Assembly (NCBI GenBank): GCA_028821125.1
Contig: JAPPHD010000047.1
Coordinates: 1 to 36,495 of the forward strand
Length of the DNA: 36,495 bases
Source: Gammaproteobacteria bacterium
GTDB lineage: Bacteria > Pseudomonadota > Gammaproteobacteria > Pseudomonadales > Azotimanducaceae
Direction: 5' to 3'
Shown: positions 32,350-36,495 of the stretch, one piece after another
How positions within the stretch are numbered: position 1 is the first letter of the stretch
How the letters are laid out: the number at the start of each line of letters is the position of its first letter
The notes under the pieces: generated by a model
Seen by the model: the letters and a program-made list of their open reading frames with translations, nothing else
The model's database searches: none
What the model was told of the DNA's origin: nothing
Translations under genes and position numbers: made by a program

Positions 32350-34366
<2,017 letters not shown>

Positions 34367-34377
34367 TCGAACGGCAA

Positions 34378-34408
34378 GTATAGGGTCGTTGGGTGGTCTT
34401 TTGCCAGT
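34378..34408 (-). promoter_or_regulatory. Candidate promoter of the thiamine operon
   Basis: On the minus strand TATACT (34383-34378) is preceded at 18 bases by TGGCAA, a weak -35. Transcription would start near 34370, immediately before the riboswitch, which is the expected place. Confidence 0.45.
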
Positions 34409-34574
34409 TCGGCGTTGTTCCTTCCACGAGAGCAAACCAGGGGTTTTGTAGGGGTTCGGAGCATCGCATAAGGTTCTCTTAACCTTTTGATAAATAAAAA
34501 CTTCTTGGCCCTTTCCGCTTCACGGCGGCACACTCCGTCAACACACTTTGTTGTGTCAATAGGAGTACCGCTTC

Positions 34575-35750
34575 ATGAACAAACGACCCACCATGCTGTC
34601 CGCAACTTTCGTCAAATCGGTCAACGTGCCTGGCCGCTACGGGGACGGCCGGGGCGGCCTTGGCCTCACCCTACTGGTCAAGCCCTCGTCGCGGCGCGGC
34701 TGCCGCAAGTCCTGGGGGCAGAGCATACGCATCAACGGCAGAAAGACCACCCTGGGGCTCGGCACCTACCCGGTGATCACGCTCGCCATGGCCCGCGAGC
34801 GGGCGCTCGAGAACGCCCGCGCGATTGCCCTTGGGCGCGATCCCCGCCGCGCATCGAACGGCGTGCCGACCTTCGCCAGGGCTGCAGAGACGGTCCTGGC
34901 CATCCACGCCGTGAACTGGAAGCCGGGTTCCCGCTCCGAGGAGCAGTGGCGCACCAGCCTGCGCGACTACGCCCTGCCGCGTCTGGGCAGCATGCGTGTG
35001 GACGCGGTGACCACCGGCGACGTCATGGCCGTTTTATTACCGATCTGGTCGACCAAGCGTGAGACCGCCCGGCGCTTGAGGCAGCGCATTGGCGCGGTGA
35101 TGAAGTGGGCGGTCGCCCAGGGCTACCGCGTGGACAACCCCGCCGGCGATGCCATCTCCGGTGCGCTGCCGAAGACCGGGGTGCGCATCGAGCACCGCAA
35201 GGCGCTGCCCCACGCCGAGGTAGGGGCAGCCCTTGAGCGCGTCCGTGCCTCGGGCGCTTACGCGGGTCTCGTGCTCGCCTTCGAGATCCTGGTGCTGACC
35301 GCCGCCCGCTCGGGCGAGGTCCGCGGCGCCCGCTGGTCGGAGATCGACACCGACGCCGCCGTCTGGACGGTCCCCGGTGAGCGCATGAAGGCCGGGCGCG
35401 AGCACCGGGTGCCGCTCTCGAACCGGGCCCTTGCCGTGCTCGACGAAGCGCGCCAGCTTGCCGACAGAGCCGCCTTGGTGTTCCCCAGCGCCACCGGGCG
35501 GATGCCGAGCCAGACCGGCCTGCGGAAGCTCTTGTGCAAGGTCGGCATCGACGCCGTGCCGCACGGGTTCCGCTCCAGCTTCCGGGACTGGGCCGCCGAG
35601 TGCACCGAGACGCCCCGCGAGGTCTGCGAGCTCGCGCTCGCCCACGTCAACAGCGACCGCGTCGAGGCCGCCTACCGCCGCAGCGACCTGTTCGAGCGCC
35701 GCAGGACGCTCATGCAGCGGTGGGCCGACTACCTCGCCGCCACGGCTTAA
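34575..35750 (+). CDS. Tyrosine recombinase (P4-type integrase)
   Basis: 391 residues. An N-terminal arm-binding domain of the DUF4102 type (about 1-90, with WGQSIRINGRKTTLGLGTYPV) is followed by a core-binding SAM-like domain (about 95-190) and the catalytic domain (about 205-380). The catalytic residues are recognisable: Arg in TAARSGEVRGARW, His-Gly-Phe-Arg in PHGFRSSFRDW, His in ELALAHV, and the nucleophile Tyr in VEAAYRRSDLFERR. AGGAG lies nine bases before ATG 34575. Such integrases drive insertion of genomic islands, usually at tRNA genes, but no tRNA is visible here. It probably marks one end of an element that continues to the right of the window. Confidence 0.94.
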   Translation: MNKRPTMLSATFVKSVNVPGRYGDGRGGLGLTLLVKPSSRRGCRKSWGQSIRINGRKTTLGLGTYPVITLAMARERALENARAIALGRDPRRASNGVPTFARAAETVLAIHAVNWKPGSRSEEQWRTSLRDYALPRLGSMRVDAVTTGDVMAVLLPIWSTKRETARRLRQRIGAVMKWAVAQGYRVDNPAGDAISGALPKTGVRIEHRKALPHAEVGAALERVRASGAYAGLVLAFEILVLTAARSGEVRGARWSEIDTDAAVWTVPGERMKAGREHRVPLSNRALAVLDEARQLADRAALVFPSATGRMPSQTGLRKLLCKVGIDAVPHGFRSSFRDWAAECTETPREVCELALAHVNSDRVEAAYRRSDLFERRRTLMQRWADYLAATA

Positions 35751-35769
35751 GCCCCGAACCCGCCCCAGC

Positions 35770-35843
35770 GCCCGCCGGCCGTTGCAATGCGAATTGCAAA
35801 CGCCGGCGGGCTCCGGGCGAACGTTTTCAATTCGCATTGCAAC
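35770..35843. repeat. Nested, mutually exclusive inverted repeats after the integrase
   Basis: Hairpin 1: GCCCGCCGGC (35770-35779) pairs perfectly with GCCGGCGGGC (35802-35811), and inside it TTGCAAT (35782-35788) pairs with ATTGCAA (35793-35799) around GCGA. Hairpin 2: the 16-base GTTGCAATGCGAATTG (35781-35796) is perfectly inverted at 35828-35843, spacer 31. Both use 35782-35796, so they cannot form together. The structure starts 20 bases after the integrase stop and ends 15 bases before the next start codon. Confidence 0.85.
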
Positions 35844-35858
35844 CGCCAGGAGATACCC

Positions 35859-36212
35859 ATGGAACTGGAACAGACCATCCAAGACTGGGGCACGCCGGCG
35901 TGGGCGATCCCCGCCGTGGCCGCGTGGATCCGCTCCGGAGGCGCCCTGGACCGCGACCTCTGGGTCGCACTGCGCGCCGCAGCCCAGGAGGGCATCCCAA
36001 TGACCGACCAGAGAACCAACACCGCGATCGAGCGCGAGGACGCCAGGACGTTCCGCATCGCCTGCCGCCTCGACGCCCGCACCTTCGAGATGCTGCAGGA
36101 CATCGAGCAACACGTCAGCGCCGATTCCCGGCGCGCGCCCCGGTCCGCTGCAGTCCGCAGCGCCATCCGGACGCTGCACCGGGCACTGTGGCCCAACGGC
36201 ACCGGGAAGTAG
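35859..36212 (+). CDS. Small protein of the integrative element, possibly ribbon-helix-helix at its C-terminus
   Basis: 117 residues from ATG 35859, which has AGGAGA six to eight bases upstream; the frame is open 24 codons further into the inverted repeats. The N-terminal half (MELEQTIQDWGTPAWAIPAV, then AAWIRSGGALDRDLWVALRA) looks helical. The C-terminal half (FRIACRLDARTFEMLQDIEQ, then PRSAAVRSAIRTLHRAL) has the strand-helix-helix rhythm of RHH DNA-binding proteins, a weak resemblance. An internal ATG at 36001 has its own AGGAGG and would give the 70-residue C-terminal half alone. The position behind an integrase suggests a regulator or excision factor; this is inference. Confidence 0.6.
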   Translation: MELEQTIQDWGTPAWAIPAVAAWIRSGGALDRDLWVALRAAAQEGIPMTDQRTNTAIEREDARTFRIACRLDARTFEMLQDIEQHVSADSRRAPRSAAVRSAIRTLHRALWPNGTGK

Positions 36213-36245
36213 CCGTCCGCAACGCCCATCTACCCGAGATCGCCC

Positions 36246-36265
36246 ACTCGGACCCCTGAGTTTTT
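36246..36265 (+). terminator. Rho-independent terminator after the small element gene
   Basis: ACTCGGACCCCTGAGT folds into a six-base-pair stem (one G-U) with an ACCC loop, and the T-run TTTTT covers 36261-36265. It lies 34 bases after the stop codon at 36212. Confidence 0.6.
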
Positions 36266-36410
36266 CCGCGCCAATGACCGCCACCACCACGACGCACCGC
36301 AGGGGTGATTTCGTTTGGTCAGACTGAAGGTATGACGTGAAGGCGCCACCCGGAGTCCGCGGCACGTAGCCGCAATCTCACGGTGGAAGCACAGTTTTCA
36401 GATTCGGCCG

Positions 36411-36430
36411 CGCCCCGCGAGCGCGGGGCG
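36411..36430. repeat. Perfect GC-rich palindrome near the right edge
   Basis: CGCCCCGCG (36411-36419) and CGCGGGGCG (36422-36430) are perfectly complementary across AG. No T-run follows, so it is not a typical terminator. The remaining 65 bases to the window edge show no gene. Confidence 0.6.
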
Positions 36431-36495
36431 GGCGTGGGATAGCTAATGTATGACCCGCCCCCGCTTGCGTTGGTGAAGTTTAGCGACATCCAAGG

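Follow-up and report, generated by a model that had tools for sequence, protein, structure and literature searches.

What two strong hairpins that cannot form together are doing between an integrase gene and the next open reading frame (ORF) is the question raised by the far end of the DNA analysed here (the window; 36,495 nt), which is contig C71 of a draft genome of 5.28 Mb in 193 contigs. The features concerned are collected in Table 1. The first-pass annotation had described a compound hairpin (10 + 7 bp; hairpin A) and a 16-bp perfect inverted repeat (B) overlapping at 35782-35796, and had placed both between the integrase stop (35750) and the AGGAG (35848) of a small ORF. Coordinates and position were borne out, and every pair is Watson-Crick (10/10 in the outer and 7/7 in the inner stem of A). 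Hairpin A begins 20 nt past the integrase stop, on the same strand, and its GCGA loop is of the GNRA type; folded alone, the segment 35768-35813 gives -33.7 kcal/mol. Repeat B can be extended, with mismatches, to arms of 26 nt (35777-35802/35822-35847) that are 92% complementary, and the segment 35777-35847 folded alone gives -39.5 kcal/mol. Since A and B both use 35782-35796, they are mutually exclusive.

The half-site, noted earlier as nearly palindromic, is indeed so at 16 of 18 positions. It is present in two inverted copies that both fit TTGCAATKCGMATTGCAA, with a GC content of 39% and 33% vs 71% in the integrase gene. Because the palindromic TTGCAATGCGAATTGCAA sits in a GC-rich 10-bp stem and is followed by a second inverted copy, two exclusive pairings arise; their exclusiveness is a by-product of this one feature and needs no separate design. 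The absence of a T-run, also remarked upon before, holds for both stems: the sole TTTT (35824-35827) lies 12 nt past stem A, there is no T in the 8 bases after B, and a scan of the plus strand found no intrinsic terminator.

Table 1. Positions of the integrase gene, the two hairpins and neighbouring features in the window
Feature	Position	Strand	Description
Left flank of integrase module	34430..34574	+	DNA similarity within the same genome starts at 34430-34431 for C105, C110, C117 and C13, and at 34416 for C92
Tyrosine recombinase (integrase) gene, P0001	34575..35750	+	391 aa by translation; Pfam Arm-DNA-bind_3, Phage_int_M and Phage_integrase above cut-offs; phrog_1 integrase
Hairpin A	35770..35811	+	Outer stem 35770-35779/35802-35811; inner stem 35782-35788/35793-35799; loop GCGA 35789-35792
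Inverted repeat B	35781..35843	+	16 perfect bp, 35781-35796/35828-35843, 16/16 Watson-Crick; 22-nt arms with one mismatch, 19 nt between
Near-palindromic 18-mer, copy 1, TTGCAATGCGAATTGCAA	35782..35799	+	Palindromic at 16/18 positions
Near-palindromic 18-mer, copy 2, inverted	35825..35842	-	Differs at one position from degenerate consensus; its centre is 43 bp from that of copy 1
AGGAG, ribosome-binding-like site	35848..35852	+	Outside both stems
117-aa ORF, P0003	35859..36212	+	Genome-like codon usage; internal ATG at 36000 gives 70 aa

The structure formed by A and B, as laid out in Table 1, is not due to chance. The best inverted-repeat score in the 160 nt past the integrase stop is 18, whereas 2000 dinucleotide shuffles never exceeded 12, and the fold of 35750-35870 has z = -2.48 (4 of 200 shuffles equally or more stable). 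No other inverted repeat in the 36.5-kb window scores at least 14 (loop ≤90). In this hairpin-rich genome, however, a long inverted repeat is nothing unusual in itself, and 17 others scoring at least 14 were found in 299,302 bases (20 other stretches or contigs); ten of them belong to two repeat families, neither of which includes the repeat studied here. At up to two mismatches, no second genomic copy of the repeat pair or of the 18-mers was detected. Among 150 genomes of the family, seven (this one included) match 35748-36495 at the DNA level and the repeat itself is covered only in its own genome; the paired 18-mer pattern had no match in viral contigs. A lone 19-mer match in locus L215 was judged to be chance (AT-rich DNA, with no second arm in 301 bases). 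The same holds for the 16 sites in 207 other loci that match a 13-mer exactly, of which the AT-rich ones are confined to L215 and to 6800 in L067; the latter has no inverted repeat around it.

The first of the two families (A) consists of hairpin repeats mostly of about 109 bp, with near-perfect 31-bp arms (GAGTTCGCATACGGCGCTTCCCTTTCGGCGC) around some 47 nt, as at L169 5790-5898, L171 197-305, L175 13-121, L177 5711-5837 and L180 482-590. Its arm core has 111 forward and 106 reverse matches genome-wide (≤1 mismatch; reversed control 0), several copies lie near contig ends, and the loci tested gave no Rfam gathering match. The second (B), of about 95-115 bp, has arms like GAGAGCAGGTATGCGGTACGGGCATCCGGCAC around 51-52 nt and edges like CTTTAAAG and GCTTGGC (L152 2376-2469, L153 3663-3777, L169 5548-5658, L177 5971-6085, L180 15543-15657 and L184 10852-10966). 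A possible third family comprises L176 8-104 and L184 2975-3064, whose inner sequences look alike by eye, and the inverted repeats at L026 3772-3862 and L148 5266-5328 share TGTCACTAC/GTAGTGACA in their arms. A dispersed stretch (window 36233-36444, L148 4480-4691; 80% between the window and C94) ends in a GC hairpin plus GGGCGTRGGRTAGCT; it is also represented at L061 2898-2912, where the hairpin stands directly behind an integrase, and at L042 1503-1517 on the minus strand.

The integrase carries the full domain set of a P4-type tyrosine recombinase (Arm-DNA-bind_3, Phage_int_M and Phage_integrase), and we take it to be of that type. Its gene starts 203 bp beyond a TPP riboswitch (34277-34372, minus strand) that leads thiC (product ThiC_Rad_SAM). 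Since none of eight congeners has an integrase match around the corresponding thiC leader (tblastn E ≤1e-3, 0.5-1.5 kb on each side), its place beside thiC suggests an insertion.

The same genome holds 33 integrase matches, fragments included. One of them is the copy on contig C105, which is 99% identical in protein and differs from C71 at 3 of 1140 positions over 34550-35689. The two copies diverge on both flanks: 53 of the last 60 nt of the gene are identical, and past about 35780, which is the start of the inverted repeat in both, the DNA can no longer be aligned. In C105 an unrelated perfect 16-bp inverted repeat, GATCATGGCCGGATGG-TT-CCATCCGGCCATGATC, follows 32 nt past the stop. Conservation of the repeats at homologous loci had been set beforehand as decisive, and their sequence is not kept; this comparison counts against a conserved repeat sequence, not against the presence of a hairpin. 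Near-identity with both flanks divergent points to gene conversion or assembly collapse. Because the integrase core is almost identical on the two contigs, and the flanks of such repeats can be misjoined, the linkage of thiC, integrase and repeat may be a misjoin of the draft assembly; the linkage of the repeat to the divergent last part of the gene and to the ORF is independent of this. Contigs C110, C117 and C13 break off within the opening 57-66 codons of the integrase gene. Tandem integrase matches occur at G007 C17 50355-52672 (L033) and G000 C139 7597-9906 (L149; the first with internal stops), and C-terminal remnants stand right behind longer copies at G000 C105 5688-5825 and G006 C47 75725-75832. 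A cassette made of a repeated integrase 3' end and hairpin (C167, C106) was considered and dropped, N-terminal fragments being common too and several lying at contig ends.

Relatives with about 70% protein identity were found, among the best 80 of 191 confirmed loci, in metagenome-assembled genomes labelled Gammaproteobacteria, Pseudomonadales, Alphaproteobacteria, Chloroflexota and others; many of these are presumably sponge-associated, judging by their isolate codes. From 112 downstream stretches 96 were kept (16 duplicates or stretches under 60 nt were removed), and exclusion of L072, cut by a contig end, left 95 loci; 20 loci on viral contigs (≤45% identity) were left out of the hairpin counts. 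With a strong inverted repeat defined as a score of at least 11 within 160 nt past the stop, a threshold picked after the scores were seen, 11 of the 33 integrase loci with at least 66% identity to P0001 (window included) were positive vs 6 of 214 controls (Fisher 3e-7), the controls being mechanical, non-overlapping ORFs of at least 300 codons from the window and from loci of at least 4 kb, not curated genes. The less similar integrases gave 2 of 62 and shuffles of the close set 3 of 990. Among the close set are two copies with a broken frame (L111, L115) and three C-terminal remnants, of which C167 carries two and C106 one; the count without these five is 7/28 (1.4e-4), and 5/24 (0.002) if the homologous hairpins of L064, L066 and L067 are merged as well. 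The excess is seen at a threshold of 10 (11/33 vs 11/214; 1e-5), holds at 12 and 13, and fades at 14 (2/33 vs 2/214; p 0.09). Close relatives of this integrase show an excess of strong inverted repeats past the stop, mostly unrelated in sequence; 22 of the 33 loci score below 11. Two of the six positive controls can be named: L152 is a family B hairpin and L016 stands some 300 nt past a convergent integrase.

In nine of the 11 positive loci the repeat starts 30-47 nt past the stop (59 and 60 nt in the other two), and no T-run follows in any of them (the 8 bases behind the repeat contain 0-3 T). In the sub-family of L064, L066, L067, L111 and L115 the hairpin lies within a conserved module extending from about -1329 to +100-130, and L057 and a C167 remnant have another hairpin in common over -180 to +101. 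A crude scan for downstream starts (ATG or GTG within 250 nt, with a ribosome-like site and a frame of 50 codons or one running off 260 nt) gave a same-strand start behind five of the 33 close integrases, including three with a strong repeat (window, C106 and C167); in the other eight strong-repeat loci it saw no close same-strand gene start.

Because strong hairpins recur behind the integrase although their sequences differ, and mostly where no gene start was seen close downstream, we favour, tentatively and with a probability of about 0.36, the reading of A and B as a hairpin structure at the 3' end of the integrase transcription unit, resembling lambda sib or a terminator without a U-tract. 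Hairpin A would fold at once when transcribed and cap the 3' side of the coding region, where it could slow 3' exonucleases and hinder read-through into the adjoining DNA. Transcription through the inverted second copy would permit the alternative pairing B, an RNA duplex of about 22 bp of the kind that RNase III may cut, and early-ending and run-on messages could then differ in fate, as at lambda sib. Transcription of A and B, their action as RNA and any effect on integrase expression are inferred. The different hairpin behind the C105 copy, the hairpin inside a conserved module in one sub-family and the GCGA loop are in keeping with this reading. So are the energies of the two states, whose comparison had been proposed from the outset and which prove close: over 35760-35880 of the plus strand the minima are -50.3 kcal/mol for the A state and -49.2 kcal/mol for the B state, a gap of about 1 kcal/mol. 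Against it stand the lack of a T-run in all 11 positive loci, the 22 close loci below the threshold and the choice of that threshold after the fact, the AT-rich, duplicated near-palindromic core, which resembles DNA-binding sites more than a GC-rich RNA stem, the wealth of other hairpin repeats in the genome, and the minus strand of the same region, which folds into a B-like structure of -60.9 kcal/mol that is stabler than the plus-strand fold. A more ambitious version appears improbable to us: an integrase clade spread across several phyla would keep a "hairpin slot" about 30-50 nt past the stop, with the structure kept and the sequence swapped, and the copy in the window would have gained a second arm and become a sib-like control of integrase dosage with two states, in a genome holding many integrase copies.

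Since the near-palindrome is AT-rich and duplicated, operators at the DNA level remain a serious rival, which we regard as possible rather than probable. A dimeric regulator (the 117- or 70-aa product, or another protein) would occupy both inverted near-palindromes of 18 bp, whose spacing is about four helical turns, and repress a promoter in the gap that separates the integrase from the next gene. The two TTGCAATKCGMATTGCAA copies lie just upstream of AGGAG, and the lack of any other genomic copy of the 18-mer at up to two mismatches is as expected of a local autoregulator. The downstream ORF looks coding, and the window is among the only five close loci with a same-strand start close behind. 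Its codon score is 0.32 bits per codon, vs a right-frame mean of 0.32 and with 7.6% of wrong-frame stretches as high; because an upstream extension to 35787 scores 0.105, codon usage makes the ATG at 35859 the likelier start. This codon usage is in line with a real gene; the earlier suggestion that its product might bind DNA found no backing from any profile or model. No DNA-binding family was recovered for the 117-aa form in Pfam (E up to 1), nor for either the 117- or the 70-aa form in NCBIfam (E up to 10) or in PHROGs (best 0.057, to families of unknown function), and AlphaFold models made without an alignment are poor for both lengths (mean pLDDT 56.5 and 63.7). A strand-helix-helix pattern seen by eye had raised the idea of a ribbon-helix-helix protein, which neither the profiles nor the models support. 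The four PDB chains matched (E 0.32-0.35) are queuosine-salvage proteins and were taken as noise.

P0003 has no confirmed homologue. Matches were found in two of 58 relatives (own genome included), in no plasmid, and in none of the genomes holding integrase relatives (0/49, in a search with no known positive), and none of five pattern matches in viral contigs is a relative. Six of 293 genomes of the order match at E ≤0.01, own genome included; the other five matches have 28-32% identity (E 6e-5 to 0.005) and four of them fall within open frames that are 334-1589 aa long. Also against operators are the absence of a sigma-70-like promoter from 34300-36495, the eight strong-repeat loci in which no close downstream start was seen, and two features that an operator does not need, namely inverted identity extending past the palindrome (AAACG/CGTTT) and the GC-rich outer stem of A. 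The operator reading put forward by the first-pass annotation is a possibility, with the unique paired near-palindromes in its favour and no DNA-binding fold recognised in the product.

An unlikely alternative that nevertheless fits the abrupt end of similarity is a junction scar without present function: the integrase module would end about 30 nt past the stop and abut palindromic DNA, either a hairpin element in decay or an inverted duplication that arose on insertion. Besides the point at which C71 and C105 part, the hairpin-rich background (17 scoring at least 14 in 299 kb, and one family with 111 + 106 arm matches) speaks for it. The window repeat belongs to none of the repeat families found, however, its 16 mismatch-free base pairs argue for recent origin or constraint, and in another sub-family the hairpin is part of a conserved module.

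The two remaining readings fit least. As an RNA switch, A and B would be alternative leader folds setting translation of the 117-aa gene. This was one of the earlier proposals and has turned out weak: the energies are close, and both the start-codon U (unpaired 0.82 in B vs 0.15 in A) and the first A of AGGAG (0.99 vs 0.34) are more open in B, but neither stem includes AGGAG, whose G's at 35849 and 35850 are paired alike in both states (unpaired ≤0.09). Rfam yields no gathering match at 35770-35850, its sole match in the window being the TPP riboswitch before thiC, and the eight strong-repeat loci without a close start also tell against a switch, which we hold to be very improbable. Least credible is the other earlier proposal, a recombination site or an origin, for instance of transfer or replication of an element beside its accessory protein gene: although inverted repeats adjoin an integrase and a small ORF and could extrude as a cruciform, no direct repeat of at least 14 nt links the region to the left border of the integrase within 34300-36495 (the contig ends at 36495, short of the far end of the element), 35600-36300 contains no tandem direct repeats, there is no plasmid relative or confirmed viral-contig relative, and the sequence is not common to near-identical integrases.

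A and B can be compared with several known systems. The two repeat families of about 110 bp in the same genome likewise have long near-perfect inverted arms around an unpaired middle; the window repeat differs from them in being unrelated in sequence and single-copy. Riboswitches and attenuators hide the ribosome-binding site in one state, and here AGGAG is outside both stems. Like the paired palindromic operators of small autoregulators, this locus has a pair of near-palindromes, spaced by about four turns and found nowhere else in the genome, ahead of a small gene; the differences are a product without a recognised DNA-binding fold and the extra GC-rich outer stem. Hairpin A has in common with intrinsic terminators and 3'-protecting hairpins a strong GC stem shortly past a stop codon, whereas A and B lack a T-run and have an AT-rich upper stem and an inverted second copy. 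If A and B are an operator or a scar, they represent an ordinary case. If the clade retains 3'-end structure but not the underlying sequence, RNA searches based on alignments overlook such structures, and a structured 3' end would be, if true, a simple self-limitation of expression for multi-copy integrases.

For the favoured reading of a 3'-end structure, the closest known way of working appears to be that of lambda sib, an analogy by which we do not claim membership in the sib kind. At sib the int message has two possible 3' structures, set by the extent of transcription, and RNase III is involved. A and B differ in lacking a U-tract terminator and a recognised attP between the integrase and the site. 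As stated in a passage of PMC5300877, lambda int mRNA is lowered by retroregulation via the downstream element sib. In both systems the structure stands just downstream of int on the same strand. Here, too, two alternative 3' structures are predicted, depending on where transcription stops, and in a putative read-through RNA a duplex of about 22 bp with one mismatch can form, which RNase III might cut.
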